Shown: piece after piece, positions 11,194 to 32,136 of the stretch
Layout: each line of letters opens with the position of its first letter
How positions within the stretch are numbered: the stretch's first letter is position 1
DNA from: Puniceicoccus vermicola
GTDB lineage: Bacteria > Verrucomicrobiota > Verrucomicrobiia > Opitutales > Puniceicoccaceae
Direction of reading: 5' to 3'
Assembly (NCBI RefSeq): GCF_014230055.1
Contig: NZ_JACHVA010000107.1
Span: 1 to 32,808 of the forward strand
Length of the DNA: 32,808 nt
Program-made: the position numbers and the translations under genes
The notes under the pieces: generated by a model
What the model was told of the DNA's origin: nothing
Seen by the model: the letters and a program-made list of their open reading frames with translations, nothing else
Databases searched by the model: none

Positions 11194-12273
11194 TCAATAG
11201 TCACCGGTTCTTAGTATCATGGGGATTCTGACGTTTGTGACGGATTCACCCGCATGCTGTTGATCAAGTTTGGCGATGAGTTCACGGGCGAGCTCTTCGC
11301 CGTTGAATACAACGGAATCGACCGGAATCGGGCAGAGTAGGCCAACCCCTTTGTTGCGATGGATGACGATTTTGAGTTCTTCCGGGACGTCGATCTGCAA
11401 CTCTTTGATCGCCATGCATACTCCGGGCACCATGTTGTCGGGAAATATGAGGATACCTTCGGGTTTGCGGGGCTGTTTCCACAATCGGTGGAATGCGTGG
11501 TATCCGATTTCATCACGAGGGCCTTGTAGGTATTGTTCGTCCTCGATTGAGGCAGGTGTAATGGGTTCGAGATCAAGGGAGCGAGCGATTTTATCGAAGG
11601 ACTCGTTTACCGACGAAGTGGACTCTAGAGGACCGGGGAGATTTGCGACGGTATGAGCACCTCTCTTCTTAAGTTGTTGAAGAGCTTGCCTGCACAAGTC
11701 GTCAAAATCGAAGTGAACGGCCTGGGTGTGGTCTTTTGGCGTCATCATTGACGTGGGCACTCCGAGTTGAGGGAGCCAGCTGATATGGTCAGAAGATAGC
11801 ATGGCTCCGATTACCGCTTGAATCTCGTTGTTCTGAATGGCCCGGACCAGTTTTGGGAAAGGCTTGCTTTGTTCGCTGCGGTGTCGGTTGTCCATAATCA
11901 GATGGACTTCGATTCCTCGACTCTCGAGTTGTTGGTACAATTGGGTGCAGAGAGCCTGGAAAAACGCACCACCTGTGGAAAGGAGAGTGCCGAAATACAG
12001 GCCGACGGAGGTGAGTCGGATTTTGTTGCCGAGGACGAAGGTCCCCCGCCAGGGAATCCGCTCGATCAGGCCCTCCCTTGCGAGTGGCGCAAGGGCTTCC
12101 TGAATCGAAAAGACGCTTGTGCCGATATCGTTGGCCAAGTCGCGCACTGCCGGGAGTCGGGAACCAACGGGAAGGTCTCCGGATAGAATGAGGCCGCGAA
12201 CCTGCTCGGTGACTTGGCGGTAGGTCGGCTCATTGGCATCGATTTTGATTTTGCTGGCCGGATGGTCTTTCAT
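11194..12273 (-). CDS. GntR-type transcriptional regulator with LacI-like sugar-sensing domain
   Basis: This 359-residue protein has a GntR winged helix at about residues 15-85 (PTYRQVTEQVRGLILSG, SRLPAVRDLANDIG, LAREGLIERIPWRGTF). A LacI/periplasmic-binding-type effector domain follows from about 95 to the end (VGLYFG, AVIGAML, EGILIFPDNMVPG, IDVPEELKIVIH). This arrangement is that of AraR-like regulators, which bind a sugar and leave their operator. It is divergent from the Gfo/Idh/MocA gene across 234 bases that contain two palindromes of the same form, one 28 bases from its own start, so autoregulation plus control of the neighbour is likely. A decayed paralogue lies at 16965-17113. The inducer is not known; position suggests a sugar or breakdown product handled by the flanking enzymes. 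Confidence 0.9.
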   Translation of the reverse strand: MKDHPASKIKIDANEPTYRQVTEQVRGLILSGDLPVGSRLPAVRDLANDIGTSVFSIQEALAPLAREGLIERIPWRGTFVLGNKIRLTSVGLYFGTLLSTGGAFFQALCTQLYQQLESRGIEVHLIMDNRHRSEQSKPFPKLVRAIQNNEIQAVIGAMLSSDHISWLPQLGVPTSMMTPKDHTQAVHFDFDDLCRQALQQLKKRGAHTVANLPGPLESTSSVNESFDKIARSLDLEPITPASIEDEQYLQGPRDEIGYHAFHRLWKQPRKPEGILIFPDNMVPGVCMAIKELQIDVPEELKIVIHRNKGVGLLCPIPVDSVVFNGEELARELIAKLDQQHAGESVTNVRIPMILRTGDY

Positions 12274-12301: not shown

Positions 12302-12312
12302 GTAATGATTAC
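12302..12312. promoter_or_regulatory. Predicted operator 1a (GTAATGATTAC)
   Basis: This is a perfect 11-base palindrome around a central G, extended by A and T to 13 bases (12301-12313). It lies 28 bases upstream of the regulator start. The same 11 bases occur at 17141-17151 in front of the regulator remnant. It shares the pattern GTAA-N-G-N-TTAC with the site at 12464-12474. It is inferred to be the autoregulatory site of the GntR/LacI-type protein. Confidence 0.6.
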
Positions 12313-12463
12313 TATGCCAGAAAAAATTCTTCGATTGGAGCGATTCGGTAGAATAAAAAATCTATAAAATACTGAAAACTAGAAAGATAATCATAATATG
12401 GATGAGAGTATGTTTCGTTCGAAGATAATGTGAGAATTGGTCTTTACAGGATCCGCGCAAACT

Positions 12464-12474
12464 GTAAGGCTTAC
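12464..12474. promoter_or_regulatory. Predicted operator 1b (GTAAGGCTTAC)
   Basis: This 11-base palindrome lies 33 bases before the oxidoreductase start. It overlaps a second symmetry: TTACA at 12444-12448 and TGTAA at 12463-12467 form an inverted repeat with a 14-base spacer. Both elements recur with identical spacing at 17277-17307. The close fit to GTAA-N-G-N-TTAC suggests that the same regulator binds here. Confidence 0.6.
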
Positions 12475-12481
12475 TATGCGT

Positions 12482-12497
12482 TGGAGGTTTTGCTCCA
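12482..12497 (+). other. Small leader hairpin after operator 1b
   Basis: TGGAG (12482-12486) can pair with CTCCA (12493-12497) around a six-base loop, starting 8 bases after the operator and ending 10 bases before the oxidoreductase start. A different sequence at 17316-17331 makes a hairpin in the same place behind operator 2b. The stem is short, so this may be chance. Confidence 0.3.
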
Positions 12498-12507
12498 GCT
12501 GTAACGT

Positions 12508-13590
12508 ATGAAAAATTTTCTCTTCAGCGATAACTCCATAGCCCATTTATCCCTGATAAATGGTTCTCGCACCATCGATCCGGTTCGCGTCGTGCAGGTT
12601 GGGGTGGAGAATTTTGGCCGACATCGCAGGAACACGCTCCGAGAGAGTGGACTGTTTCGGCTGGAAGCCGTCTATGATTGGGATCAGGAGGCTTGCCGTT
12701 TGGCAGGTCGGGAAGAGGGTTGTTCGGTTGCTAATAGCTATGAGGAGCTGTTGGAGACGGCTGGAGTCGAGGCAGTCGTGATTTCAACAGGTGCTTTGCA
12801 TCACGCGGCTCAAATTGAGTCGGCTGCACGCAAAGGGCTACATGTTTTCGTGGAGAAGCCGGTCTGTGCCACTCCGGAAGAAGCGGATGGGTTGCTCCAA
12901 CTGGAGAAAGAAACTGGAGTGATTATCGGTGTGGGTCATGTCGCTCACTATTCGAGTGAGATGTCATTGGTCACGAAGAGAATGATCGAATCGGGTGAGT
13001 TGGGCACGATTGCATCCTTCCAGAAAACGACCGCTGACCATGGAGGGCTTACGATTCGACCGGGCGACTGGAGAGGGGATCCAGAGAAGAATCCAGGAGG
13101 CATTTTGTTTCAATGCGGCGTCCATGGATTTCATGAATTGATGTTCTATTTTGGACCTGTGCGTGAAGTCTATGCAACGATGCGGTACGATGTACATACG
13201 ACACAAACCGCCGATGTAGCCATCTGCCATCTGAAGTTTGAATCCGGGCTGGTAGGAACTCTGAGTGCCTTTCATGTTACCCCTTACAAGCATTCCCTTC
13301 AGATTTACGGCACGGGTGCCAATCTCTATCGGGAGGACCGCTTTTTCGATGAAGGCTCTGTTTTGCAAATGCAGAAGGCACGGATGGATGGAGGCAAGGA
13401 ACCCGTTGAAGAAGTATCGGTGCCGGCCGGCAGCGAGGTGTCGGGCAATTTAGTAAATTTTTTCCGAGCAATTCGGGAATCCACGCCGGTTTACCCCTCT
13501 CTGCGGGATGGTTTGAGCGCACTGCGGATCGTATTCGCCGCCGAGCAATCCGCGCGTACCGGTATGCCGGTGGTTCTCGGAGATGGATGA
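12508..13590 (+). CDS. Gfo/Idh/MocA family oxidoreductase
   Basis: This is a 360-residue NAD(P)-dependent sugar or cyclitol dehydrogenase-type protein. The N-terminal Rossmann fold begins VRVVQVGVENFG, where the glycine pattern is looser than the usual GxGxxG. EKP (116-118) carries the conserved Lys117. GGILFQCGVHGFHEL supplies the conserved His206/His209 region of the substrate domain. The family oxidises or reduces hydroxyl groups of sugars, inositols and their derivatives; the substrate cannot be predicted. There is no signal peptide. It starts 33 bases after operator 1b and is divergent from the regulator, so it is the prime candidate target. No Shine-Dalgarno sequence is visible. The secreted propeller gene follows after 86 bases and may share the transcript. 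Confidence 0.9.
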   Translation: MKNFLFSDNSIAHLSLINGSRTIDPVRVVQVGVENFGRHRRNTLRESGLFRLEAVYDWDQEACRLAGREEGCSVANSYEELLETAGVEAVVISTGALHHAAQIESAARKGLHVFVEKPVCATPEEADGLLQLEKETGVIIGVGHVAHYSSEMSLVTKRMIESGELGTIASFQKTTADHGGLTIRPGDWRGDPEKNPGGILFQCGVHGFHELMFYFGPVREVYATMRYDVHTTQTADVAICHLKFESGLVGTLSAFHVTPYKHSLQIYGTGANLYREDRFFDEGSVLQMQKARMDGGKEPVEEVSVPAGSEVSGNLVNFFRAIRESTPVYPSLRDGLSALRIVFAAEQSARTGMPVVLGDG

Positions 13591-13676
13591 CTCAGAACCT
13601 TTCATCGACCTCCGCCTAGCCCAGTTAAAAGAAGCCATCCAGGACATCCACAATCAAAATCCCACTCCATCATCTC

Positions 13677-16600
13677 ATGCTTTTCCGATTCCTCACTTCG
13701 TTGTCTCTCTGTCTCACGCTCACTCCGGCTTTTGCCCAGTTAACGATCCCTTATTTTCTCGAAAAGGACAGCCGGGTGTCCCTGGCGATCTACGACTCTG
13801 AGGGAAAAATGGTGCGCACTCTGCGGAATGCGGACCCGCAACCAGCCGGCGCGAACACCGTTTTCTGGGATGGGCTCGACCCCGATGGCCACGCCGTCCC
13901 GGCGGGCGACTACACTTGGAAACTCCTTTCCACCCAGGGCATGAAGGCCGAGTTCCTCGTAAATCTCGGCGTCAGCACCGGAATCGATTTCTGGGTCGGC
14001 CAGCACGGCGGTCCCGCCTGTCTCGCCGTCGATGGAGATTCTTTCTACGTCGCCGGGAAACCGGAAGGCGTCCCGATGCTGATCAAAGCAAAATTGTCCG
14101 GCGGCAGTGAATACTTCATCGACCAGTTAGAAACCACGGCTCCCGAAGCAATCTGCGTCGATAACGGCAAAGTCCACGCCCTGCTCTCCAGCGGCATGCT
14201 CTACACGCTCGATGCCGCCACAGGTGAGAAGATCCTGCGAAAAGGCCTGCCTTATCCTGGAGGCGCTCCTCTCGTCCTGCCCGTCCGTGAACTCGAACCC
14301 ATCCCTCCGACGGTTGGAGAAAAATCGGTACGGATTCCCGCAGGCCCCGGACGTTATCTGCTCAGCCTAAAAATCGGACAAGCCAACGCCGACAACGCAC
14401 CCTTTACAATGGATGGAGATTTTCGGAAAAACCAGTTTCCAACCACTCTCGCCGGTGAATTCGAAACGATCGTCTCGCCTCCTCAATACCGAACCTTTAA
14501 CCCTCTCCCCACTCCTGAAAGCGGCGTGTTTGAACAAACGTTCCGCTCATTGTCCAAAAATTCTCAACCTTGGGCTGTCGCCGACATGAAACTGCTCACG
14601 GTCCCTGACTTCATCGACGCCCGTTTTGGCGAGCTGATTGCCTGCTACCCAGCCTTGGGTACCGTCGCTTGGATCGACCCGGTCAGCGCAGATATTCTCG
14701 CAACCGCCCAACTGCCTGAAGGCAAAACGGGCCGTGCTGTCTTGGTTGCCCCCGGAACGGCTCTCGTCGCCAGCGGCAACGAGTTGATTTCCCTCACCCG
14801 GGATGGCCAAAGCGAAGTCAAGGCCACTGGACTGACCGACGTGACCGCCCTCGCCTTCGATCCCTCGAATGGCGGATTTTGGGTCGCCGACGGCGGTACC
14901 AGCCAGCAGGTCAAATTTTTTGATTCCGACTTCAAGCTCCAAAAAACTTTCGGCCGCGAAGGCGGTCGCCAAACGGGAATTTATCATCCGGAGAATTTCC
15001 TCCAGATCTCCGCCATTGCAGCCGATGGAAAGGGAGGGTTTCTCATCACCGAATCCAAGTCCGCGCCCCGCCGCACAGTCCATTTCAGCGCCGACGGGGA
15101 AATCCTCAGGGAATGGCTGGGGGGTCAACAGTTCTACACTTTTGCCGCACCCGACCCTGAAAACCCCGACATTCTCTGGATGGATTCCTCTTGGGGCTGG
15201 ATCATGCAGGTCCAGGTAGACTGGGACCAACGCACTTGGAAAGTTCTCGCTACCTATGAATGGGGCGAAGGCTATTCTTCCGATTTTGTGAACCCTCGAA
15301 AGATGGCTCAGCGTCACACCGTCAAACGGCTCGACCTCGATCATGACGGCAAGAACGAGACCTATCTCTACGGCGGAAACATGGGCTTGCTCAAAGTGGA
15401 CGAAGCCGCCGGGAAACTTCGCCTAGTCAGCGTGCTCGACATCGTCCGTCCCACCGAAAACCTCGAGGAGTGGCGGAAGACGTCCGTCGAAGATCTTCCC
15501 AAACCATGGCTGGAGGCCATCGCGCTGGCGGGGGATGATCCCGAGACCAACTTTTCGCTCTATCGCAGCTACGGATGGGCCGATGCCAATGGCGACTACG
15601 AAATGCAAGCGAACGAATTCCGGCTCGCCAGACGGAAGAAAGACGAGCGGGATCAGCGAGGCAGCTTCGGTATTCTTGACGACTTGAGCGTGCTCAAACG
15701 CGGCTCCCGTACCCAAAATCGCAATGAACCGACTCCGTTTTGGACCCGTTATCCGCTGCAGGGCTACACCGCCAGCGGCTCTCCGATCTGGGATTGGGCT
15801 ATCTCCGAGCCCCTTTTGCCCCCGACCGCGTCAACCGACATTGAGCGCGCCCGCGCTGTTTTCGTCGCTCCTTCAGGCGATATCTATCAACTCATCCAAG
15901 GTCTCGGTGATGGGTATTATTCCATCGGCACCTACAATCTCGGACACGGCAGTTTCTGGCCCGCCAACAAGTCCTCTGCGGTTGGCGTACAAAAATGGAA
16001 CCCCGAAGGTGAACTCCTCTGGCAAGTCGCCCCCCTCGCTTCCCGCCAAGAAAGGGTGCCGGGCAAAATGCAACACCCGCTCCGCTTTGCCGGCATGGTC
16101 AATGGTACCATCGGTGTCTGCGATAAGGTGGTGAACCCTGTCGAATTCTGGACCGAGGACGGACTCTATGCCGGAGGACTTTTTGATCGGCGTGCCGACG
16201 ATGGATTGCCCATTCGGGTGTATTCGTGGTGGATCGGCGGAACCAGAGGTTACGAAGCCGATACCGGTCAGGCGTTGCTTCAATACGACATGAATCTTGG
16301 CGGCTCCCTGATCGAACGGGAAAATGGGGAGGTGATCTTTGTGGGGTCAGGCTGGAACAGTTGCCCGGCCTACCGCGTCACGGGCTGGGACAACTTTGAA
16401 CGTCAGGAAGGCACTCTGAAAATCTCCGCTCCGGCCGGTCAGCTCGCCGCTCAAGACGGGATCGGACTCCGCGCGGAATTTTTTGCCAGTGAAACCGGAA
16501 ATGAGCAGCCCGTGCTGGAAACCGTCTCTCCGCGCCTCTGGTTTGAACCCAACCGGGCTGAGAAAAGGAGGATGCCGGAAGTGCTTTGGCCGGAAAAACT

Positions 16601-16928
16601 CACTGCCTCGATTCCCCAGAACGAGGATTTTACCGCCCGCTGGAGCGGATATCTCGAACCTCGATTTACGGAAGACTACACTCTCGCCCTCTATAAGAAG
16701 GAGGGCATCGCTCGCGTCTGGATCGACGGCGAACTCGTAGTGGAGACCACTGACTCACCGAGGGATAAAAAAGCGTTTTCCCAACCCATCCCGTTCCGAG
16801 CCGGAAAAAAGGTTCCGATACGAGTGGAATGGAAAGGCACCCCCGCCGACGAGCTGCACCTGAGCTGGGAAAGCCTCAGCCAACCCATCGAGCACGTTCC
16901 CTCCAGCGCTCTCTATACTGAAAAGTAG
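13677..16928 (+). CDS. Secreted FlgD-Ig / beta-propeller / PA14 protein
   Basis: This 1083-residue protein has a signal peptide (cleavage AFA|Q after residue 20). A FlgD-type Ig domain follows (about 22-95; VSLAIYDSEGKMVRTL, FWDGLDPDGHAVPAGDYTW). Next is a long NHL/beta-propeller-like region with repeated blades (for example AFDPSNGGFWVADGG and AADGKGGFLITES). A PA14-type domain (about 928-1080) ends the protein: GLRAEFFASE, FTARWSGYLEPRFTEDYTLAL, ARVWIDGELV. PA14 domains often bind carbohydrate. Residues 636-647 (DANGDYEMQANE) fit an EF-hand-type calcium loop. The protein at 23417-27211 is a paralogue in its central part. A surface glycan-binding role is inferred; no catalytic motif was recognised. 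Codons end in C far more often than in the neighbouring genes, by eye. Confidence 0.85.
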   Translation: MLFRFLTSLSLCLTLTPAFAQLTIPYFLEKDSRVSLAIYDSEGKMVRTLRNADPQPAGANTVFWDGLDPDGHAVPAGDYTWKLLSTQGMKAEFLVNLGVSTGIDFWVGQHGGPACLAVDGDSFYVAGKPEGVPMLIKAKLSGGSEYFIDQLETTAPEAICVDNGKVHALLSSGMLYTLDAATGEKILRKGLPYPGGAPLVLPVRELEPIPPTVGEKSVRIPAGPGRYLLSLKIGQANADNAPFTMDGDFRKNQFPTTLAGEFETIVSPPQYRTFNPLPTPESGVFEQTFRSLSKNSQPWAVADMKLLTVPDFIDARFGELIACYPALGTVAWIDPVSADILATAQLPEGKTGRAVLVAPGTALVASGNELISLTRDGQSEVKATGLTDVTALAFDPSNGGFWVADGGTSQQVKFFDSDFKLQKTFGREGGRQTGIYHPENFLQISAIAADGKGGFLITESKSAPRRTVHFSADGEILREWLGGQQFYTFAAPDPENPDILWMDSSWGWIMQVQVDWDQRTWKVLATYEWGEGYSSDFVNPRKMAQRHTVKRLDLDHDGKNETYLYGGNMGLLKVDEAAGKLRLVSVLDIVRPTENLEEWRKTSVEDLPKPWLEAIALAGDDPETNFSLYRSYGWADANGDYEMQANEFRLARRKKDERDQRGSFGILDDLSVLKRGSRTQNRNEPTPFWTRYPLQGYTASGSPIWDWAISEPLLPPTASTDIERARAVFVAPSGDIYQLIQGLGDGYYSIGTYNLGHGSFWPANKSSAVGVQKWNPEGELLWQVAPLASRQERVPGKMQHPLRFAGMVNGTIGVCDKVVNPVEFWTEDGLYAGGLFDRRADDGLPIRVYSWWIGGTRGYEADTGQALLQYDMNLGGSLIERENGEVIFVGSGWNSCPAYRVTGWDNFERQEGTLKISAPAGQLAAQDGIGLRAEFFASETGNEQPVLETVSPRLWFEPNRAEKRRMPEVLWPEKLTASIPQNEDFTARWSGYLEPRFTEDYTLALYKKEGIARVWIDGELVVETTDSPRDKKAFSQPIPFRAGKKVPIRVEWKGTPADELHLSWESLSQPIEHVPSSALYTEK

Positions 16929-16964
16929 AGTAGCACAGCGAGATCTCGATCTGAACCACTCGCT

Positions 16965-17113
16965 TCAGTAGTCTCCGATTCTTAGGATCATGGGGATTCT
17001 GACGTTCCTGGCAGATTTGCGGCGGTAGGGAAGCCTCTTTTTTAAGATGTTGAAGCGCTTGCCAGCACAAGTCGTCGAGGTTGAAGTAAACGGTCTTTGT
17101 GAGGGTCTTTCAT
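16965..17113 (-). pseudogene. Collapsed remnant of a second GntR/LacI-type regulator gene
   Basis: The two ends of a regulator gene survive with one middle block. Bases 16965-17006 match the 3' end of the intact regulator (11194-11235), with a 20-base exact run at 16987-17006. Bases 17012-17098 match 11638-11730, encoding LDDLCWQALQHLKK against FDDLCRQALQQLKK. Bases 17104-17113 match its start (12264-12273), and the similarity continues into the promoter. About 400 and 530 bases are missing internally. The second gap joins two copies of GGTCTTT (11730-11736 and 12264-12270 in the intact gene), as expected of a microhomology deletion. Only 23 codons can be read from the old start before a stop. 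No functional protein can be made. Confidence 0.88.
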
Positions 17114-17140
17114 GGGTTCTGATAACCAAGTTTCAGGATA

Positions 17141-17151
17141 GTAATGATTAC
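17141..17151. promoter_or_regulatory. Predicted operator 2a (GTAATGATTAC)
   Basis: This is identical over 11 bases to operator 1a and lies 27 bases upstream of the old start of the regulator remnant. The operator pair is retained although the adjacent regulator is destroyed. The flanks have diverged substantially. Confidence 0.55.
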
Positions 17152-17296
17152 AATGTGTGACGAAAAATTTGTTTTTGGCGCTGTTCTTTGGCAATTGATA
17201 AAAACCTGAATAATAGATATATATATAAATATATATGGGAGATGTTTCAGTTTTGAGAGGAGGTGAGAATTAAGCTTTACAGGATTTGGTTAAAAT

Positions 17297-17307
17297 GTAA
17301 GGCTTAC
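17297..17307. promoter_or_regulatory. Predicted operator 2b (GTAAGGCTTAC)
   Basis: This is identical to operator 1b, with the upstream TTACA half-site (17277-17281) kept at the same 14-base spacing from TGTAA although the spacer differs at most positions. The distance from operator 2a (156 bases) is close to that between 1a and 1b (162 bases). It is inferred to place the downstream repeat-protein gene under the surviving regulator at 11194-12273. Confidence 0.58.
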
Positions 17308-17315
17308 AGATTGCC

Positions 17316-17331
17316 GAGAGATATTTCTCTC
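17316..17331 (+). other. Small leader hairpin after operator 2b
   Basis: GAGAGA (17316-17321) pairs with TCTCTC (17326-17331) around a TATT loop, 8 bases after operator 2b. Position matches the hairpin at 12482-12497 but the sequence does not. The role, if any, is unknown. Confidence 0.3.
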
Positions 17332-17441: not shown

Positions 17442-18692
17442 ATGAGACTGACCTATATCTGCCTCCGCGTCTCTCTTGTCTCCCTTTTCATTCCCCGGTC
17501 CACAATCAAGGCGGCCGACCGCATATTTGATGGAGAGGCAGGTGCGCCTTACAATTGGACAGACGAAGTAAACTGGGATGGTAACACCGCCATTGCCGAT
17601 GGAGACAATCTCAGCTTCGGCACATTGATACAAAGCATATCTATGACGAACGATACCGTCGGGCTTTCGCTCGGGTCGCTTACGTTTAACGGAGGAGCCA
17701 ATGCAATTCTAAATGCTGTCGGTGAAGACAACAACGCACTTTCTTTCAGCGGCGGGATATTCCTGGTGAGTAGTGGGAATACCACCATTGAATCCAGTCT
17801 CATTTTGACCGCTGACCAAACTTTTTCCAATACGCTGGCAAACGATAGAGTTCTGACCTTCGGACCGTTGAATGCGAATGCAGCCAATATTTCGATGGGA
17901 GTCTACAATCTGGAGCTTCATTCGACCAGTTCTGGTGCCGGTGCTGCCGATATTCGTTTTGGTTTTGGCGGAGCTCTGACGGGTTCGGGCGATATCACTA
18001 AGACTGGGGCTGGCAGGGCTACGTTTCGGGGGGACGGATCGGGGTTTTCTGGAGATATTTTTGTGAACGAGGGCGCGTTGATTGCACAGAGTCAACTCGG
18101 CAGTGCTTTGGGCAACACGACTGGGAGCACGACCGTGGCATCTGGTGCCACTCTCGTGTTTGAGAATAATCCCAGTAATGGCGAGCAAATCACTGTGGGT
18201 GGGCAGGGTGCGGATTGCAGCGCCTTCGCTCCCAACCAGCGCGGTGCCATCGCTTTCACCGGCACCCTCACCAGCCAAACCACGGTTTTCACTTTATCCT
18301 CGGACACCACCATCGGATTCAAGGACGCCAACAGGAAGGTTAGCCTGACTGGAGGCATCGACGAATCCACGGGCGGCAGCGGTCTCGAAAAAGTGGGATA
18401 CTGGGCGGATCCGAACGCCGGGTTCCTCGTCCTCACCGAAACCGATAGCACCTACACCGGCACCACCACGGTTAAAGGCGGCGGCCTGGTGACGCGACAG
18501 TGGAAGTACGCTGTTTACGAAGATGGGGCGGAACTGCTCTTCAATCTGGAGCGTGATCCATACGAGATGAATAATCTGGCCGACGATCCGGATTACGTAG
18601 AGCGAAAGTGTGGACTGCGTCGGCAGTTGCGTGACGAATGCATCCGAACGGATGTTGGCACTTGGCCGTTTCTATTGGCGCGGATGGCTTAA
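17442..18692 (+). CDS. Chimera: autotransporter-associated beta-strand-repeat protein fused to sulfatase C-terminus
   Basis: The 416-residue frame has a signal peptide (likely KAA|D after residue 25). About 320 residues follow of the G/T/N/S-rich repeat type called autotransporter-associated beta-strand repeat (LTGSGDITKTGAGRATFRG, SDTTIGFKD, TYTGTTTVKGGG). At about residue 348 (base 18483-18491) the character changes abruptly. The last 68 residues, TRQWKYAVYEDGAELLFNL then RDPYEMNNLADDP, are the C-terminal end of an S1 sulfatase. The intact sulfatase at 6020-7411 has the matching LLYDNQIDPYQMNNL. The normal C terminus of the repeat protein is gone. The frame stays open across the junction, so a chimeric protein may be made, but it has no sulfatase active site. 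ATG 17442 is chosen over TTG 17379 because it places the signal peptide at the N terminus. Confidence 0.8.
   Translation: MRLTYICLRVSLVSLFIPRSTIKAADRIFDGEAGAPYNWTDEVNWDGNTAIADGDNLSFGTLIQSISMTNDTVGLSLGSLTFNGGANAILNAVGEDNNALSFSGGIFLVSSGNTTIESSLILTADQTFSNTLANDRVLTFGPLNANAANISMGVYNLELHSTSSGAGAADIRFGFGGALTGSGDITKTGAGRATFRGDGSGFSGDIFVNEGALIAQSQLGSALGNTTGSTTVASGATLVFENNPSNGEQITVGGQGADCSAFAPNQRGAIAFTGTLTSQTTVFTLSSDTTIGFKDANRKVSLTGGIDESTGGSGLEKVGYWADPNAGFLVLTETDSTYTGTTTVKGGGLVTRQWKYAVYEDGAELLFNLERDPYEMNNLADDPDYVERKCGLRRQLRDECIRTDVGTWPFLLARMA
18486..18692 (+). pseudogene. Sulfatase 3' fragment inside the chimeric gene
   Basis: This segment encodes only the C-terminal strand and helix of an S1 sulfatase (WKYAVYEDG, NLERDPYEMNNL, LRRQLRDECIRTDVG). 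The formylglycine site and the whole catalytic domain are absent. It is read in its native frame as the tail of the repeat protein. It differs clearly from the sulfatase at 6020-7411, so it comes from another sulfatase gene that is no longer present here. Confidence 0.78.
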
Positions 18693-18724: not shown

Positions 18725-18773
18725 GATCTGTAAGAACTCTCGAGCTGAAAATTCAGTTTTGGAAGCCGGGTTT

Positions 18774-21700
18774 ATGTTGAAAAAATCTGAGTGTCGTCGG
18801 CCCAGGCATAAGCGCGGATTTGCCCTCATCATCGCTCTTGCCCTTATGGCTTTTATGCTGCTCCTACTGCTCGCTTTGGGAGGGATGTTGAGGGTCGAAT
18901 CATCCACGCTGCAGCGAGATCAGGAGAAGTTACTGGCTCGGGCGAATACCCAATTGGGTTTGGCGCTCGCCGTAGGAGATCTCCAACGATTGGCCGGCCC
19001 GGACCAGCGAATTACGGCCCCGGCCGATCTGGTTGCTGACATCGATTCCGAGGGGGTCGCAACATCCTCTCCGAATGGGATCAATGTTCAGCCCGGGACG
19101 CGCTATTGGACCGGTGTCTGGGGAAACCGGAATCCGGATATCAGCTATGCCTTAACTCCGGATCAGATCGATGCCGATGACACCGAGCCAGCTCTTTTGA
19201 ACTGGTTGGTGAGTGGAAACGAGTCGACCCGTTATGAGCAGTTGCTCGGAGGGGGCGTCGTTCCCGATACTGCCAGTCGTTTTTCTCCGGCCACGACCGT
19301 TCAGGGTTTTGGAGCGAGCAGTGATGCGTTCTCCCGACCTGGCTTCTCATCGGGAAGTGGGGTAGTGGAGGGCGTCGTACTCGTTGGATCCAATACCGTT
19401 TCGAGCGGGAGTCCCGCGCATGCTCAGGAAAGCTTTGATCGGGGAAATTACGTGGTGGCTCCTCTGGTTGATTTGGAAGCCGACGGTCAGGTGAGAGGCC
19501 GCTACGCATGGTGGGTGGGAGACGAGGGCGTCAAGGCCCGCATCGACCTACAGAACGGCTATCAACTGACTGGGGAATCCAACGATCAGATTAACAGTTT
19601 CATCACTTCCCAGCGCTCCGGGGTTGAATTCATGGATCAGGATATTGCCGGCACCGCGCAGCTCACTGGCTACGCCCCCGAGTCCCCCTTACTCGGTAAG
19701 GTTCTCACCCAGGACCAACTCCCCCTGGTGGGGGCGGACGCGGCCGCACAGGCCAACCTCGCCGCCGGACTGCCAAACCGCTTCCACGACATCACCACCT
19801 ATTCCTACGGCATCCTGTCCGACACCTATGCCGGTGGCTTGAAAAAGGACCTCACTGCCGACCTCGCCGACACCTCCACCAACTTCGACTACCGACCGGC
19901 GGACAGTGACCCGGTATTTCCCCCGGTCAACCCCGGCGAACAAAATCTTCCTACCTGGGGGCAGCTCCGCGCCTGGGCCCGCACGAACCCCGACCCGGAT
20001 TCCGATGTCGTCGACACTAGCACTGTGCAGGCGCACACCGCCGGCATTGCCCCGGTCATCCAGTTCGCGGCGGTGGGTATGAATTATATGCTCAGCGAAG
20101 ACAACGGCAGCGGCGACCGCGAGGTCACCTTTGCCCTGTACCCGATGGTAGTGCTTTTCAACCCCTATTCCTATCCCATCAAGGCCGCCGACTATGATGT
20201 GGGGATCCGCTTCGGGAAATACAGCGGCGCAACCGATGCCCGCAACACCTTCCAGATCCGAGTCAAGGATATCGACATCGCCACCTACGACCCCGACGAA
20301 GACGAAGACCGTAATGACAGTTACGACACGGTGGGCTACATCGACCTGAATGCCATGCGCATCTACCCGGACTCGGAAGCCTCCCAGTCGCAACCCGATA
20401 CGTTCCTGAGGCTTCGGATCAGCGCAGAGGATCAACACGGAACGGAACAGGACATTCTACCTGGGCAGCGCTTTGCCTACATGCTGACCTCCTTCGCGGT
20501 GAACGAATACAGCCATGCCAATCCACCCGAACTTCACCGGGTCGACAGCATCCAGGATGAGATCACCAACTACTTCACACTCCCCCCCCGGAATTTTCCC
20601 GGAGTGTTCGCCGACCCGAACGACCACATCATACTCTACGGAAATGAAGGAGCCGCCAACAATCCCCACAACAATCCCACCAGTCTGAGATACATGGAAT
20701 CCTCGATTACCCTCGCTGATGCAGGGGACCTGTCCTCCACCGACTGGGCCACCAACTTCCCCCGGTTCCGCAGCGCCGCATATAATATTATGACCATGGT
20801 CGTTCAGGGGGTCAAATACCAGAGGTTTTGCGTGAATGAGGCGGAATCCATCCCCCAGTCCATTTATGACCGGGTGATGGATGAATCACCCCAGGCCAAA
20901 ACCGCCTGGAGGTACGCGGCGTTGAACGAAAAAGGTGGCTATTGGGCCAAATCCCCCCTGGCCGGGCAGGCCTGGGGCAAAACAATCCGTTACCTCGCGG
21001 ACGCCAACCTGCGTGCTCCCCACATTATGGGAACTGCGTACGAAAACGACAATGCCCTAAGTCTTGGCGATTCAGGTCCGCGGTATGCCGCGAGGCCCTT
21101 CGGAGCCGTAATTAGTGGCGGAAGGCCCGAGGTTAACAGTCCCCCATACCCCGGTATTTTGTTAGACAGTCCCCATTACAGTTTTGGCTTTCAAAACCCG
21201 GGCTCCATGAAGAATCTGCGCGCTGTTCTCTTTGATCTGCTCCCCTCGCCCGACCGCCTGTTATCCCTGGGACAGCTCCAGCATGTTCCCTGGGCGCGTT
21301 ACAGTTTCCACGGCATCAATCCCTTCGCGAATTCCTATGCTCCGTTGCGGATCGCCCGGGACAGCACCTATCGGGAAAATGGGGTTCGTCGCCCCGGAGA
21401 TTTGGTCACCAACGGGGTCATCACCCCCGCGAGCGATCCGTTTTACGACCTACCCTGGTTGTTGAACCGGGCCATGTGGGATCGCTATTTTGTCTCCGGG
21501 ATTCCAGCTGCCCTGAATACCGTCCGGGACGTCCTGCCCAATTCCAGAATGACCGTGGTATACGAGGACACCACACCAGAGGAGGTGCGCTATTCCGGTT
21601 CCGGCAACAACCAGGCTTACGACAAGGCCTCCGCCAACTTGATGGTGCAGGGGGCCTTTAATATCAACTCGACCTCCGAGCAGGCTTGGCGTGCGATTCT

Positions 21701-22565
21701 GGCTGGCCCCAGCGGGTTGCCCCAGAATAGTGACTATGCCGAATCCGACGATAACGTCGAAACCTCGATCCCATATCCCCGGTTCAGCAGGAACCTGACT
21801 GCACTGGCCGTGGACGATGGCCCCTACAGCGGATTCACCAGCACCATGACCTTACCAAGCGAAGGGGGGGGCGATATCCGGGCCATGATACAAATGGCCA
21901 ACCGAGGGCTGTACCTCAACACGCCAGACCTTCCCGGGAACAGCTCCCCGCAGGCCGTCGTGAATGAACTCGCCCGCTCCATTGTCAATGAGATTCGTCT
22001 CCGGGGCCCATTCCTTTCCCTCGCTGATTTCGTCAACCGCCCCCTCTCTGATCCGAGTGAACCCGCCGGAATCAAGGGCACTCTCCAGGCCGGACTCGAC
22101 AACATGGATCCCGCAGTGGCCCAGGTGAACCCCGACTTCCTGATCGACGAATTGGGCGGCAAGGTCACGTCCTTCGATTCGTCGAGCTACTATGCCGCCG
22201 ACTACCTATGGGACAGTGATCATTTCATGGGTGGAACTGAAACGGGACGGGGAGAGATCAGTAAAGCCCCTTGGGCCATGAGCCCCCTCCAATTAACGCA
22301 GGCGGATCTCCTGTCTTCGCTTGGCCCTCTGTTGAGCGCCCGGTCCGATACCTTCACCATCCGCACCTACGGGGAGAAACAAAATCCGGCTACCGGCGTA
22401 GTCGAAGGCCGGGCGTGGTGCGAGGCCGTGGTTCAGCGCATGCCGGGATACATCGGTAATGAGCCCTCCGAGGCTCCTATATCCTCGCTGGGGCCACTCA
22501 GCGCCTCATTCGGACGCCGGTTCGAGATCATCTCTTTCCGCTATCTCAACCCCTCGGAGATCTGA
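18774..22565 (+). CDS. Verru_Chthon cassette protein A-like, GspK-like giant pseudopilin
   Basis: This 1263-residue protein begins with a basic leader and a type IV pilin-like helix, RGFALIIALALMAFMLLLLL, with probable prepilin peptidase cleavage between Gly15 and Phe16. The +5 residue is Ile20, not Glu; GspK-type minor pseudopilins also lack Glu5. GAFNINST (960-967) resembles the GspK NxNTA element and RGPFLSLADFVNRPL its downstream domain. The length and C-terminal motifs (RAWCEAVVQR, FGRRFEIISFRYLNPSEI) fit Verru_Chthon cassette protein A. ATG 18774 is chosen because GGAAG lies at 18761-18765 and it leaves a normal leader. Cassette partners B, C and D are not in the window. Codon use shifts from mixed to strongly C-ending near 19620. 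The role, perhaps in protein export or surface assembly, is inferred. Confidence 0.85.
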   Translation: MLKKSECRRPRHKRGFALIIALALMAFMLLLLLALGGMLRVESSTLQRDQEKLLARANTQLGLALAVGDLQRLAGPDQRITAPADLVADIDSEGVATSSPNGINVQPGTRYWTGVWGNRNPDISYALTPDQIDADDTEPALLNWLVSGNESTRYEQLLGGGVVPDTASRFSPATTVQGFGASSDAFSRPGFSSGSGVVEGVVLVGSNTVSSGSPAHAQESFDRGNYVVAPLVDLEADGQVRGRYAWWVGDEGVKARIDLQNGYQLTGESNDQINSFITSQRSGVEFMDQDIAGTAQLTGYAPESPLLGKVLTQDQLPLVGADAAAQANLAAGLPNRFHDITTYSYGILSDTYAGGLKKDLTADLADTSTNFDYRPADSDPVFPPVNPGEQNLPTWGQLRAWARTNPDPDSDVVDTSTVQAHTAGIAPVIQFAAVGMNYMLSEDNGSGDREVTFALYPMVVLFNPYSYPIKAADYDVGIRFGKYSGATDARNTFQIRVKDIDIATYDPDEDEDRNDSYDTVGYIDLNAMRIYPDSEASQSQPDTFLRLRISAEDQHGTEQDILPGQRFAYMLTSFAVNEYSHANPPELHRVDSIQDEITNYFTLPPRNFPGVFADPNDHIILYGNEGAANNPHNNPTSLRYMESSITLADAGDLSSTDWATNFPRFRSAAYNIMTMVVQGVKYQRFCVNEAESIPQSIYDRVMDESPQAKTAWRYAALNEKGGYWAKSPLAGQAWGKTIRYLADANLRAPHIMGTAYENDNALSLGDSGPRYAARPFGAVISGGRPEVNSPPYPGILLDSPHYSFGFQNPGSMKNLRAVLFDLLPSPDRLLSLGQLQHVPWARYSFHGINPFANSYAPLRIARDSTYRENGVRRPGDLVTNGVITPASDPFYDLPWLLNRAMWDRYFVSGIPAALNTVRDVLPNSRMTVVYEDTTPEEVRYSGSGNNQAYDKASANLMVQGAFNINSTSEQAWRAILAGPSGLPQNSDYAESDDNVETSIPYPRFSRNLTALAVDDGPYSGFTSTMTLPSEGGGDIRAMIQMANRGLYLNTPDLPGNSSPQAVVNELARSIVNEIRLRGPFLSLADFVNRPLSDPSEPAGIKGTLQAGLDNMDPAVAQVNPDFLIDELGGKVTSFDSSSYYAADYLWDSDHFMGGTETGRGEISKAPWAMSPLQLTQADLLSSLGPLLSARSDTFTIRTYGEKQNPATGVVEGRAWCEAVVQRMPGYIGNEPSEAPISSLGPLSASFGRRFEIISFRYLNPSEI

Positions 22566-23325: not shown

Positions 23326-23416
23326 TGGCCGTTTCATCGGGCAGAGACGCCAACTTTAATAGAGATTAATAACAGTAGTAATGAGGTATTCACCTTTTTT
23401 GATAAGAGAGAAACAT

Positions 23417-26400
23417 ATGAAAAAACGTATTGGAATGTATAGAATAGTGGCCTTTATCTGTTTGGCACTGATGGTTTCCACTGCTTCCGGCCGAGGGCGT
23501 AACAAGCAACTTTATGCGGTTCCTGCTCAAGGCAAGATAACCATTGATGGCAAGCTTGATGACTGGGACCTTTCCGGTCAGATTCTCTCTTACGTCGTGC
23601 CGGAAACGCAGGACATGCAGTCGGCCCGTACGGCTATGATGTACGACGACGAAGCACTCTACATCAGCGGCATTGTACGCGATACAAGCCCCATGATGAA
23701 CCGTCATGACCCCAATACGAATCCAGAGAAAGCCTGGGACGCCGACGTATGTCAGCTCTTTTTCAGTCTCGATCCGGATGAAGATCTCCCCCTGAAATAT
23801 AGCCAGTTCAAGAGACAGCATGACCAGTCCCCGGTCGGTTCCTTGATGATGTGGTATTTCACGGATCGCAAGGAAGCTTGCCTTGCCATGTTCCAGGGCA
23901 TGAAGTTTAACAAGCCTCTTCGACCTGACCTGCGGGAAAACGGCGTCATACCCCATGAGTATTACAGTGGGGCCTACAGGGAGCAGGAAGATGGCGGCGG
24001 CTATACATTCGAGTATCGTATTCCCTGGGAAACGTTCAATTTGAAGCGTGTTCCCAAGGCCGATGATATTCTCGCCATGAGCATGGCCGTCTTCTGGAGC
24101 CGTCCGGATGGGCTCAAGACGGCTGGGGGGGCCGCTTGGGCATATGACGTAATGAGTGGCCCGGGATTTTCTTTCCAGAGCAGTGCTGTCTGGGGCAAGC
24201 TGGTCTTCTGGCCGGAAAACAATATCGACGAGAGTATGATAACCGCCGGTATGCCTCCGGAGAAACCTCTCCCTTTGAAATTCAGTTATGATGTGCCGGA
24301 GGACAGTGAGATTTCGGTGCAGCTCTATAGCGAAGAGGGCGAGATTGTCCGCATGCTGGTGCCGCAGCAATATCGTCGGGCTGGAAAAAATACCGAGATG
24401 TGGGACGGTCTTGATGATCAGGGACTTCCGCTCCCCGCTGGCAAGTATATATGGAAAGGTATCTATCACGAACCGATAAAAGCCGAGTGGCGTCTGTCGG
24501 TAAATAACAGCGGTACTCCTCCATACCCCACGGATGATAACAAAGGGGGCTGGGGTGGTGACCATGGCCGACCGAGTACGGTCTGTTCAACTCCTGACGG
24601 AATGCTTCTGGCCTGGAGTGCATGCGAATATGGCTGGGGCATTATCCGCGTTGATCTTGACGGCAAGAAGATGTGGGGCTCCAAGCACAGCGCGACTTAC
24701 GTTTCTGCAGATGACAAGCACATCTTTCTGGCCGGGGGGCATGGATTTAACAGCGATCCGAGCGTGCAGATTCTGGATCTCAAGGATTCACGACCCATGA
24801 GTCTGGAGAATGGCAAGCCCACCTTTATTGCACCAGAAGGGGGCACTGATGAGACGAATGAAGTCACCGGTCTTGATTGCGCCAACGGCAAGCTCTATGT
24901 TTCTTATGCTCAACGAAATCTTATCGGTGTCTTTGACATCAGGGATGGCAGTATCAGTAAAACCCTGGCAGTTCCTTCCCCGGAGCGCTTGGCCGTAGCC
25001 AAAGATGGTACGGTGCTGGTCATCAGCGAAGGCAAGATCGTCGCCATAAAAGAAGGGAAGTCTGTTGACTTGATTACAACGAATCTTGATTCGCCCAGCG
25101 GTGTTGATGTTGCGGAAGACGGTACCATCTATGTCGCGAACAGAGGTGAACTGCAGAATATCAGCGTCTTTGATCCTTCCGGTAAGTATCTGAAGAGCAT
25201 CGGCAAGGATGGCGGTCGCCCTGCCAAGGGTCGCTACGATCGTTCCGGTATGTATATGTCTGGTGGTATGGAGCTCGACAGCGAGGGACGCTTGTGGGTT
25301 GCCGAAACGACCGATGGCCCCAAGCGGATAAGTGTATGGGATACCGAGAGCGGTGAAAATGTAGACGAGTTCTTTGGTGCCTCTGCTTACTTTGGTTATG
25401 GTTACATCGATCCAGACCAGCCAGACATGATGTTTGCTCACTATGTCCTCTGGAAGCTCGATTGGGAGAATCTCAAAGGCTATCCCTACACCACGATCTG
25501 GCGCAAGACAGAGCCTACCATGATGGTGCCACCCGGACCCTCCGGGTATTCCAGTGTCACCAGATTTATTACTGCTGAGAATGGCCGTCAATACGCCTGG
25601 GGCACAAACCGTCCGTTTTCCGTTTTGAGCTACCGCGATGGGGATCTATTCAAACCCTGCGCCGCTTTCTTTTCTATTAAACGCGAGAAAGGGCAGGAGG
25701 AATATCAGGGGACTGAGATTCCCTTTATTGATAGTGATGCGGAAACCTATCCCAACGGTTCTTATTTCTGGCAGGATAAGAATAATGATCAATGCCTACA
25801 ACCTGACGAAGTGTTGCCATTTCCCGGTAAGTTCAATCACACAAAGTTTGCCTGGTTGCAGAAGGATCTCGGTCTCTGGTTGGGCAATAATACCTTTGTT
25901 ATGCCCACGGAAATCACCGAGACGGGTCAGCCTGTCTATGACGTGCTAAAGGCTCAGGAGACTGTTTTCTCTGGCAACGTGCAAGGTGGCAATGTGCGCC
26001 ATGGTTACTTTGCCCGCGATGAGGAAGGCAACCTTTACTCCTTCAACCGTGGTATGCTGGGCAAGTGGAATCCTGACGGTAAGAGAGAATGGTATTATGA
26101 CGATATTGTTAATTGGCATAAGGCATTGAATATGCCGATTACCGGCCCTGGCCGTTTGTGGGGTATGTCCGGTATTATGGGCGGAGTGAGCGATAGGTAT
26201 TTTGGTACCATGACCTATTTCGGCCCCAACCATATCTTCCGGGATGATGGCATGTATGTCGCCGCTGTTCTAAAGGATGGACGGGTCGGAGGACGCGCCG
26301 ACAAGAAGGGAACTCAGGAAGGTCAGCCAGAGGGGCAAAATGGTCAGTTCGTTATGCTCAATATTGATGGCGAAGATCGATTTTTCATCATTCATGGTGG

Positions 26401-27211
26401 ACAGGACAGCCGTGTCTGGGAGGTCTTGAATCTCGATACAGTAAAGGATCTAGAAGGGGGTATCTACCATCATAGCAATGAACAGGTCGAACTGGCTGCA
26501 GCAGCGATGGAAGAATATAATGCCTTCATCGCCGATACCAAACGCCTGATCATTGTGCGTGGTAAGAGTGCTTTGGAAACATCACAACCTGTGGGCCGTT
26601 CGGTGGACAGCAATCGTGGCTTCAAAGCTCGTGTGGCGTATGATGCGGAAAATATGTACTTCAAGTTTGACGTGGATACTCCCTTTGAGCTGACCAACGC
26701 CGAGCCGGAGAGTAAGCTTATCTTCCGGGGAGGGAATATCATTGATATCCAGCTCGCTACTGATCTCAAGGCGGATCCCGCGCGCAAGACGCCCGCTCCG
26801 GGCGATATCCGTATTCTGATTACCCGTAAGAATGGCAAGCCGTTCGCCATGCTTTATGAAACCAAGGTCAAGGATTTCGAGGGTGAGCCGATTGTTTTCG
26901 AATCGCCGACCGGCAGCGAGACCTTCGACCGGATAGAAGTTTTTGAAGATTTTGAACTTACTTATCACAAGACCTTAGGTGGTTTTGAGGCTTTGGTTAC
27001 CATTCCCCTTGAGGCCTTGGGTATTACCGAGCTCAAGCCGGGCGAGAAGATCAAGATGGATCTTGGTTATATCTTTGGTAACAACCAGGGGACCCGAACT
27101 GCGGCCCGTTCTCATGCCCGGAACAATAGCTTTACCGCTAATGTAACCAACGACATTCCCCATGAGAGTCGTTTGGAGCCTGCCGAGTGGGGTGAAGCAA
27201 CGGTGGAATAA
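23417..27211 (+). CDS. Secreted CBM9-like / FlgD-Ig / beta-propeller / CBM9-like protein
   Basis: This 1264-residue protein has a signal peptide (cleavage near STASG|R). A CBM9-like domain follows (about 35-270; KITIDGKLDDW, MMYDDEALYISGIVRD, YRIPWETF). A FlgD-type Ig domain comes next (about 290-365; ISVQLYSEEGEIVRML, MWDGLDDQGLPLPAGKYIW). A long NHL-like propeller occupies the middle. A second CBM9-like region closes it (about 1050-1264; KARVAYDAENMYFKF, ALVTIPLEALGI). Residues 787-798 (DKNNDQCLQPDE) fit an EF-hand calcium loop. The Ig and propeller parts are paralogous to 13677-16928. ATG 23417 is preferred over 23381 because it starts a clean signal peptide and has AAGAGAG upstream. A surface sugar-binding function is inferred; catalysis is not excluded. 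Its T-rich third-codon use differs from the C-rich gene before it. Confidence 0.83.
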   Translation: MKKRIGMYRIVAFICLALMVSTASGRGRNKQLYAVPAQGKITIDGKLDDWDLSGQILSYVVPETQDMQSARTAMMYDDEALYISGIVRDTSPMMNRHDPNTNPEKAWDADVCQLFFSLDPDEDLPLKYSQFKRQHDQSPVGSLMMWYFTDRKEACLAMFQGMKFNKPLRPDLRENGVIPHEYYSGAYREQEDGGGYTFEYRIPWETFNLKRVPKADDILAMSMAVFWSRPDGLKTAGGAAWAYDVMSGPGFSFQSSAVWGKLVFWPENNIDESMITAGMPPEKPLPLKFSYDVPEDSEISVQLYSEEGEIVRMLVPQQYRRAGKNTEMWDGLDDQGLPLPAGKYIWKGIYHEPIKAEWRLSVNNSGTPPYPTDDNKGGWGGDHGRPSTVCSTPDGMLLAWSACEYGWGIIRVDLDGKKMWGSKHSATYVSADDKHIFLAGGHGFNSDPSVQILDLKDSRPMSLENGKPTFIAPEGGTDETNEVTGLDCANGKLYVSYAQRNLIGVFDIRDGSISKTLAVPSPERLAVAKDGTVLVISEGKIVAIKEGKSVDLITTNLDSPSGVDVAEDGTIYVANRGELQNISVFDPSGKYLKSIGKDGGRPAKGRYDRSGMYMSGGMELDSEGRLWVAETTDGPKRISVWDTESGENVDEFFGASAYFGYGYIDPDQPDMMFAHYVLWKLDWENLKGYPYTTIWRKTEPTMMVPPGPSGYSSVTRFITAENGRQYAWGTNRPFSVLSYRDGDLFKPCAAFFSIKREKGQEEYQGTEIPFIDSDAETYPNGSYFWQDKNNDQCLQPDEVLPFPGKFNHTKFAWLQKDLGLWLGNNTFVMPTEITETGQPVYDVLKAQETVFSGNVQGGNVRHGYFARDEEGNLYSFNRGMLGKWNPDGKREWYYDDIVNWHKALNMPITGPGRLWGMSGIMGGVSDRYFGTMTYFGPNHIFRDDGMYVAAVLKDGRVGGRADKKGTQEGQPEGQNGQFVMLNIDGEDRFFIIHGGQDSRVWEVLNLDTVKDLEGGIYHHSNEQVELAAAAMEEYNAFIADTKRLIIVRGKSALETSQPVGRSVDSNRGFKARVAYDAENMYFKFDVDTPFELTNAEPESKLIFRGGNIIDIQLATDLKADPARKTPAPGDIRILITRKNGKPFAMLYETKVKDFEGEPIVFESPTGSETFDRIEVFEDFELTYHKTLGGFEALVTIPLEALGITELKPGEKIKMDLGYIFGNNQGTRTAARSHARNNSFTANVTNDIPHESRLEPAEWGEATVE

Positions 27212-27259: not shown

Positions 27260-30200
27260 ATGAGAGAGAAAACGCCCCAGCGGACTTTTCGCTGGAGCGC
27301 ACCCCTTTTTACGGATTGGAGCGCCCAGTACATTAACCTTTTCCTTCCTGAAACCAGGGTAGGGACGGCGCTGCTTCTGCATATTGATGGCGAACTTCAC
27401 GATTTTCAATATACAGGAGTCGAAAGTTCGCGTGGCGCGCAGATCGTATTGAAACTGGGTTTCGAGGCCGGGGAGGAAAAGAAACTGGTTTTTTCGGATG
27501 CCGAACACTACGCGGGGTCGTTGGAAAAGCGGGAGTTGGAATTCGAAACCAATACGCCAATCGGTCACGGTGCGGCTTGTTTGGAAGTGGGGGCAAATTT
27601 TCCCTTTCTACGCTTTGGAAATCAAAGGATGGAGGGAGAAATTTGGGGAATTTCGGCACCCTTACGCAGTTCCTTGGTTTGCGAGGGAGAGGGCCCGCTT
27701 TTTACCGACTATCATCTTGAGTACACGGACGAGCGAGACGGAGTGTATCGATTAACTTTTCGGTGCTTTAAGCATGAGGATAGGATCGAAGTAACGGAAA
27801 CCTTTTCACTCGAAATGGGGACGGAAATTCGATGGCGCCTCAATCCTGAAAAGGGTTGGACGCGAATCTTGAGCTGGGATGACTTTCACGCAGAGAAAGA
27901 GCCGACGATCGAACCCATCGAAGCTGAGCAACTGGACGGACTCTTGTGTCGGTTGCAAATGCCGGTGCTGACAGAATATTTTATCCCGAATAACCGGGGC
28001 TGGTTTGCGTTTTTTGACGACCGGCAGCCATCGGAAGGGATGTTGGGGATTCTGGGACTGGAGGGAGCTTCGTGGGAGGAAGCGCCGGACGGAATGCCGG
28101 AGATTTATGCGGCCGAGGGGAAGGTGGAATGGCGAGCCTCTCTGGTGTCTGGACGGCGGAAGTGGTTGTTGGTGAAGGCCCCGCTGGAAGTCGAGAGTTC
28201 ACCCGAACGGAGGTTTCTCTTTCATCGATTGCATGCCGAATGGAACGCTCTGCGATTGGATCAGGCCTTGGAGGATTCCCGTACTTTGGAGGCAGGGAAG
28301 GGAAGCGAGCGCCGACGGAGTTTTTTTCCGGAAGGCGAGGGTCTGCATCCCTTCGTGACCAAGCAAATCGACGCACATCCCACCCTGCAAAATTATCGCG
28401 ACACCGTCCTCGCCAAGCCGCTGGCGGATTGTTCAATCGCGGAGACGCTTTTTGTCGCCATGATTCGGACCCAGCCGAAAGTGACGGAGGAGCTCAAAAC
28501 AAAACTATTTGCGAGATTCGAGAGGTGGGTGAGACAATTTCAGGGCTGGCGACAGGGGGAGTTTGACTACAGTAAGTGCGTCATTGGCTTCAGCCGGATG
28601 GTTCGCGGTATCCTCATTGCATTTGATTGGCTACAATCAGTGGACGCCTTGAGCCGGGAGGAGAGAATACGATTTGAACATTACTTTGTCTTCGCGGCTC
28701 GACGGATTCTGGACGAGGGCCGTTGGCCGCATTCGCGGACCTGGAAGCATCCGAATCATCCGGAGTCCGTTCGAGATTTCTATACCTACGGTGGGGAGCA
28801 TCGTCCCGATCGATTGGTCTGGACGAATTCGTTGCCGAATTTTCAATCGGACCCGATGTGTGCCTTGATTCATCTGGCCGTTGTGCTGCCGGAGCATCCC
28901 GAGGCGGCGGAGTGGCTGCGGGTGGGGCGTGAGGATATCGAGAGGCAGCTCGATGCGTATTGCGGTAAAAGTGGCGCATGGGCGGAGTCGATCAACTACG
29001 CGCTTTATACCTTATCGTATTTTGTCATCACTTTCCACGTGTTGAAGAAACAATATGGCATCAACTACTTTCAAGACGCTCGTGTCCGAGGGATGGTGAG
29101 TTGGTTGTGCCGCTTCTTTGGCCCTTACGATAAACGTTTTGAAACCTATACGTGGCCGGCGGTGGGTAATTCGATCCTACCGCAAATTCAAGCCCAGTAT
29201 CTGCTGGCTTACGCGTCCGGGCTAGATGCGGACGATGCGTTGAGGAGAGAGATCTTTGGGATTTATAAGCGGGTTGAGCAGAAGATTCTACTCAAAGAGC
29301 ACTATGGAACGGTATTGGCAGTGCTAGCCCCGCAAATGCCGGATGAGGTGCCTCCATTGACACAGCTAACGAGTGAAACCATGGATGAGGTTGGTGTATC
29401 GATGCGTCACCAACATACCTTCCCGAAGGAGAGCTATTTGTTCCAGAAGATCGGATTCGCCAAAGATCATTACGAAGGGGATGAGACGGCCTTCAACTGG
29501 TATGCGAAAGGAGATCCATTTTGCATGGATTATGGCACATACACACCTGAAGCAACAACCGGGGGTGCCCATAATCTGGTGGAAATTGCCGAAATGGATG
29601 CACCTTGCCGGGGCTATTTGGCTGATCATTTATTCACTCTCAATGTGGATTATACGCGGTGTGAGGTTCCGGTGACGCAAAAGCTTCTCTGGGGGCATCC
29701 GCGATCATTTGAAGAAATTGATCAAATTGACGGGGTGATTGATCGGAAGAAGACCCCCTATTTTTACATAGGCGATAGGAATCCAGTCGGTCCGAAAATT
29801 TGGAAAGTTCGACAAATGCTTTACGTCAAGCCGGACTATCTGGTGCTATTCGATCGAGTCATCGGGAAAGCCTCCCATCGTTGGAATCTCCACTTTACGG
29901 GAGGTCCAGTCCACCGGCAGGGAAACCAGCTTTGGGCGGACGGACGTTTTACTTTGGATTTGATGGTAACCTTTTCACACCCACTGGATTTTCAACTGGA
30001 GACGGGAGAGATGATTCCGAACGCTCAGAAGGAAGAGGATCGCCCCAAGCACGCTCAGCATTTTTGCAGGGTGACCAACAAAACAGACGGTTGCTACCGC
30101 GCCCTCGTTTTTGCCAAAGAAAAAGATCGGGAAGTGACGGTGACGTCTGCCGGAAAGAATGGTTTCAAGGTCGAGGCGTCGACCTACACGGATTACGTAT

Positions 30201-32101: not shown

Positions 32102-32136
32102 TGAGTATCCATACAGTGGATACTTAGATCGGACGG

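Follow-up and report, generated by a model that had tools for sequence, protein, structure and literature searches.

The window, a stretch of 32,808 nucleotides from Puniceicoccus vermicola, carries the gene of a GntR/LacI-type regulator and, divergently oriented, a gene encoding a Gfo/Idh/MocA oxidoreductase. The regulator combines an N-terminal GntR winged helix (residues 16-79) with a C-terminal LacI/GalR-type sensor, and CcpA structures match its residues 121-322. Two short palindromes, O1 and O2, are located between the two genes (copy A) and recur further right in the window (copy B); a third pair was found elsewhere in the genome, on contig C99 (copy C). The features are given below, with the palindromes listed as putative operators.

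11194..12273, minus strand: GntR/LacI-type regulator, 359 aa, helix TSVFSIQ (PF00392, 1.6e-16; PF13377, 1.3e-9)
12302..12312, unstranded: putative operator O1 of copy A, GTAATGATTAC; distance to the regulator start codon 28 bp
12464..12474, unstranded: putative operator O2 of copy A, GTAAGGCTTAC; distance to the called oxidoreductase start codon 33 bp
12482..12497, plus strand: small hairpin after O2 of copy A, suggestive
12508..13590, plus strand: Gfo/Idh/MocA oxidoreductase (PF01408, PF02894, PF22725), divergent from the regulator
16962..17017, minus strand: 3' end of a second regulator gene (copy B), a remnant that retains the stop codon
17010..17113, minus strand: remnant of the middle of the second regulator gene joined to the start codon, GGTCTTT-repeat junction
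17141..17151, unstranded: putative operator O1 of copy B, GTAATGATTAC
17297..17307, unstranded: putative operator O2 of copy B, GTAAGGCTTAC
17316..17331, plus strand: small hairpin after O2 of copy B, suggestive
17442..18692, plus strand: frame of a PATR repeat protein (autotransporter repeat, 4.1e-8) with a sulfatase-like fragment at its end (arylsulfatase, 7e-5)
C99:15140: putative operator O1 of copy C, GTAATCATTAC
C99:15294: putative operator O2 of copy C, GTAAGGCTTAC
C99:15312-15326: small hairpin after O2 of copy C

Copy A shows the layout of a two-site divergon, with O1 28 bp and O2 33 bp away from the start codon of the respective divergent gene, and is the only one of the three copies in which the gene directly following O2 is undamaged. 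Glycoside hydrolases of families 31 and 78 and an alpha-glucosidase-like enzyme were identified in its surroundings, and a GH1 enzyme and a sulfatase, both assigned by reading only, are also found nearby; these gene surroundings are a sugar-utilisation cluster. At the left end of the window, the product of the first gene (19-1224) shares 30% identity with the C-terminal portion of the product of gene 18759-22565, for which no family was detected in Pfam or NCBIfam, and an IS66-family transposase occupies the right end (30656-32137). An Rfam search of the window at gathering thresholds gave no match. Scans of named genomes revealed no relative of the regulator; in the corresponding search with the oxidoreductase, 80 of 200 relatives were kept, and the best-scoring one was 31% identical.

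On both strands of the window, the motif GTAANGNTTAC was matched at just four starts (12302, 12464, 17141 and 17297), which are the positions named in the earlier note, compared to a mean of 0.05 and a maximum of 1 in 100 dinucleotide-preserving shuffles. The near-equal internal distance of the two pairs was also confirmed, with start-to-start spacings of 162 in copy A and 156 in copy B; in copy C the spacing is 154. A half-site arrangement TTACA-N14-TGTAA, with TTACA 14 bp before the TGTAA of O2, had been described as kept as well; it is present in both window copies but missing from copy C and is therefore not a constant part. A small hairpin follows O2 by 7-8 nt in all three copies, with stem letters differing between them, and its shared position, at a chance of about 0.07 for each of three sequences, is only suggestive. 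Promoter-like sites numbered two in copy A, none in copy B and one in copy C, compared to 0.7 to 1.1 in shuffles, so that consensus promoters showed no useful excess in the three copies, and terminators were not detected in scans of them.

The distribution of the pair was analysed with the pattern GTAANSNTTAC-N130-160-GTAANSNTTAC in 372 genomes of the order that had been drawn from a larger group. The long-spaced pair was detected in three places, all of them in the source genome (G000) and beside the regulator or its remnants; the reversed control of the pattern gave no place in this genome and eight places in six others. A genome-wide regulon visible from single sites was rejected. Single GTAANGNTTAC sites have 20 matches in the source genome, six of them in the three pairs, compared to 43 for the reversed control, and 12 of the 14 matches outside the pairs fall within mechanical ORFs of 100 aa or more. 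A 13-bp consensus, WGTAAKNMTTACW, was derived from the six operators and occurs at seven genome places, namely the six and C126:72096, compared to eight for its reversed control, so that the seventh place is unremarkable by count; among 166 loci it was found in 12, all from the source genome. The genome scan that the earlier note had proposed thus revealed no wide regulon, with counts below the control for both motifs.

The similarity between copies A and B extends beyond the palindromes into the flanks, which the earlier note had missed. The stretch 17010-17109 resembles an internal piece of the regulator and is followed directly by the start codon (17111-17113), the leader and O1. The edges of the two copy B remnants overlap by a few bases, and their left junction is not sharp. 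The part missing from copy B lies between two GGTCTTT repeats of copy A (11730-11736 and 12264-12270), which are 534 bp, or 178 codons, apart. Because of these remnants the two window pairs are related by descent, and the second pair is, judged from this comparison, the leftover of a duplicated and since decayed regulator gene with its divergent promoter. Two independently matching promoters, as originally proposed, are consequently not supported. The repeat-protein gene, which had been named as a target of the second pair, could at most be a damaged target: the PATR match of frame 17442-18692 reaches 26.8 bits, just under the cutoff of 27, and the frame ends like a sulfatase C-terminus and is a fusion scar. 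The other named target, the oxidoreductase, is likely to be one.

A protein search of the genome detected the third copy as a regulator fragment with two stops (C99:14982-15107; 76% identity over 42 residues), and when copy B was searched against the genome DNA with an E threshold of 10, only copies A and C were convincing relatives. The right-hand deletion junction of copy C is the same as that of copy B, the left-hand ends are different, and the edge at GGTCTTT possibly arose more than once independently. Left of copy C, directly following the truncated regulator, a GH2-family gene begins at a distance of 182 bp from O1 and may have been captured by the promoter of that regulator. Right of O2 lies a short relic that matches the product encoded at 27260-30442 of the window (41 residues, 49% identity; E 7e-4, computed against this single stretch). 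A few kb from copy C, a truncated relative (L013:3155-3742, C99) of the window CBM9 protein 23381-27211 was noticed, with 42% identity over about 190 residues, which is a second sign of cluster duplication and decay.

Site patterns in the regulator remnant numbered 11 for AB|C, 10 for AC|B and 9 for BC|A. Differences at codon positions 1, 2 and 3 of the remnant amounted to 5/3/16 for A-C (40 sites each) and 9/5/13 for A-B (39, 39 and 38 sites), and in the block used for the site patterns to 5/3/13 for A-C, 7/4/9 for A-B and 10/5/7 for B-C. The coding signal is clear for A-C alone, and B-C shows no position bias. Due to the bias in A-C, copy C looks like a regulator that worked as a gene for most of its separate history. 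Taken at the level of sequence, the common descent of the three copies and the decay of two regulator genes are demonstrated.

Regulator matches, the source genome included, were obtained in 2 of 87 relatives at E 1e-20, in 12 of 387 genomes of the phylum and 8 of 372 of the order at 1e-30, and in 13 of 374 of the class at 1e-45, these sets overlapping one another. The best identity of any homologue was 38%, and the lack of any orthologue found above this value precluded footprinting of the complete palindrome. Three homologues (L146, L147 and L152) have the helix TSVF[ST]IQ in common with the window regulator, their helix domains being 52-60% and their sensors 30-32% identical to it. We counted WGTAAK, the consensus of all 12 half-sites in the three copies, within 200 bp upstream of each start codon, leaving out L003 and L059 (start unresolved in both), L052 (the same gene as L042) and L011. 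Upstream of the three helix-sharing homologues (3 × 200 bp) WGTAAK occurs 11 times compared to 2.0 expected, a count reached in none of 300 shuffles. Upstream of 39 entries with other helices, which contain one gene twice (L149/L158, both zero) and the near-identical pairs L044/L045 and L150/L151, 13 occurrences compare with 12.05 expected, and 123 of 300 shuffles reach this count. Taken one by one, L147 and L152 are conspicuous; L146 is not significant (p 0.20). Among all 256 four-base cores, GTAA ranks first in the same three flanks (10 compared to 2.03, z 5.2; runner-up z 3.2), the count being 10 instead of 11 as letters of the start codon were excluded. These counts demonstrate that in other genomes the half-site goes with the helix type.

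The full palindrome was absent from homologous loci (0 of 34 other entries and 0 of 10 in another set), so that the spacing of the half-sites is not conserved. The comparison of homologous upstream regions that had been suggested as a check consequently bears out the half-site, together with the same helix, but not the complete palindrome. Perfect 7+7 palindromes were found near 3 of 31 homologue starts compared to 1 of 30 positions farther away, which is no clear excess. For this reason a perfect 21-bp palindrome (TGAATAAAATCATTTTATTCA) located 33 to 13 bp before the start of the L040 regulator (G434), whose helix differs, is no more than noted here. Two inverted half-site pairs were observed before the L163 regulator (G766) at 10188 and 10288, one of them, TGTAAGGCTATAAGTGATTACA, with pieces of both O1 and O2. 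A PATR gene follows the L163 regulator, and the divergent gene at L164 encodes a PATR repeat protein of the kind also found beyond copy B; ATTACA precedes the likely start of this L164 gene by 46 bp. When viral contigs were scanned once with the L146 regulator as the query, no relative was obtained.

The seventh WGTAAKNMTTACW place bears on the question of which protein binds the palindromes. At C126:72096 the site reads TGTAAGAATTACA, and TGTAAACTTTACA follows 52 bp away at 72148, 12 bp before a haem-NO-binding (HNOB) gene; both palindromes (72096-72160; L026:5097-5161) lie in the gap before this gene, which is followed by a sensor kinase gene, and no GntR gene adjoins. In 171 kb of own-genome stretches, a sample to which the window does not belong, GTAAN3TTAC pairs within 200 bp were found just here and in copy C. 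This arrangement counts in favour of the palindromes being sites of another DNA-binding protein acting on these promoters rather than of the adjacent regulator. However, all three long-spaced pairs travel with the regulator gene or a remnant of it, and in other genomes the half-site tracks the helix type of the adjacent regulator, which makes another protein unlikely. The C126 pair itself is a possible fourth target of the regulator, or else represents sites of another factor.

Alternatively, the identity of the pairs might reflect nothing but the shared ancestry of a duplicated segment, with palindromes free of function, as the segments are homologous throughout and two of the copies hold broken genes. 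In the comparison of copies A and B, 22 of 22 positions inside the palindromes are identical compared to 91 of 144 between them, in agreement with the earlier statement that the intervening bases are more diverged. The three-copy alignment extends this result, with 21 of 22 columns invariant in the palindromes and 62 of 153 in between (Fisher p 6.5e-7). The palindromes are its two best 11-column windows, their sole change among the copies concerns the centre of O1, and the difference between O1 and O2 in the fifth base (GTAAT-ATTAC versus GTAAG-CTTAC) is kept in all three copies. Together with the enrichment of the half-site in other genomes, this conservation argues against ancestry alone, which we regard as very unlikely. 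That the unit is a mobile or REP-like element with the palindromes as its ends, as its three dispersed copies and the deletion junction common to two of them might suggest, is hardly credible, since the similarity runs past the palindromes on both sides, the identity between copies (58-79% by segment, 31-41% downstream of O2) is too low for the copies to have moved recently, copy A is an ordinary divergon and the genome search with copy B yielded no convincing relatives other than A and C.

We therefore favour, with a probability of roughly 0.75, the reading in which GTAAK-S-MTTAC, with the half-site WGTAAK, is the operator of the regulator, mediating repression of its own gene and of the oxidoreductase gene, and in which the divergon was duplicated at least twice. 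The operator part of the earlier proposal is well supported, as the palindromes are the best-conserved stretches of the promoters, the pair occurs only beside the regulator or its remnants and the half-site follows the helix type; what is not supported is that two unrelated promoters share the sites, the second promoter being a decayed duplicate of the first. The mirrored pairs are most likely landing sites of one sugar-sensing regulator. One dimer would bind each palindrome, most likely repressing the regulator's own gene from O1 and the oxidoreductase gene from O2, and a sugar-like ligand bound by the LacI-type sensor would release the regulator from the DNA. After at least two duplications of the whole divergon within the genome, the regulator genes of copies B and C were lost by internal deletion and the operators retained. 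As a consequence, the surviving regulator could serve three promoters, and we tentatively consider that a regulon, perhaps with C126 as a fourth member, arose in this way by loss of regulators.

Compared with known systems, the regulator is of a familiar kind and its putative operator is new; duplication and decay of the unit can be traced clearly. At the positions that we take to be R41 and R45 of AraR, the window helix carries V and Q. Of the two features of AraR orthology, neither the recognition-helix arginine contacting G nor the GT-N4-AC box is present. In the available parts of the literature, the AraR subfamily (B. subtilis AraR) resembles the window regulator in its GntR winged helix, LacI/GalR-type sensor, palindromic operators and two-site promoters (PMC4494728, PMC4218819). 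The AraR box, however, is of the GT-N4-AC type (ATTTGTACGTACAAAT), whereas GTAAKSMTTAC represents GT-N7-AC, and AraR pairs are in phase and loop (PMC4494728, PMC4218819). The spacings of 162, 156 and 154 are out of phase, and looping between O1 and O2 is not indicated because they differ by 6 and 8 bp.

In the two-site divergons of FadR- and HutC-subfamily regulators (PMC4494728), regulator and target are likewise divergent, and the intergenic region holds two sites, each located close to the gene that it serves. Their subfamilies are different ones, and the present genome keeps two additional copies that lack a regulator gene. A parallel is offered by duplicated LacI-family regulons, for example ThuR, or GntR and IdnR, in that regulator and target were duplicated together, and recent paralogues can recognise each other's sites (PMC4052901). 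In the present case, the duplicated regulator genes decayed and the operators stayed, an outcome not described in the available part of that source.

In the open-licence literature we found no described operator for the helix type TSVF[ST]IQ, for which GTAAK-S-MTTAC now provides a concrete candidate among GntR/LacI-type regulators. The switch itself is of an ordinary kind, but its history is unusually readable, as one genome presents the regulatory cassette in an intact form and in two decayed states. This series helps to show how a shared regulon can form from local sugar regulators.
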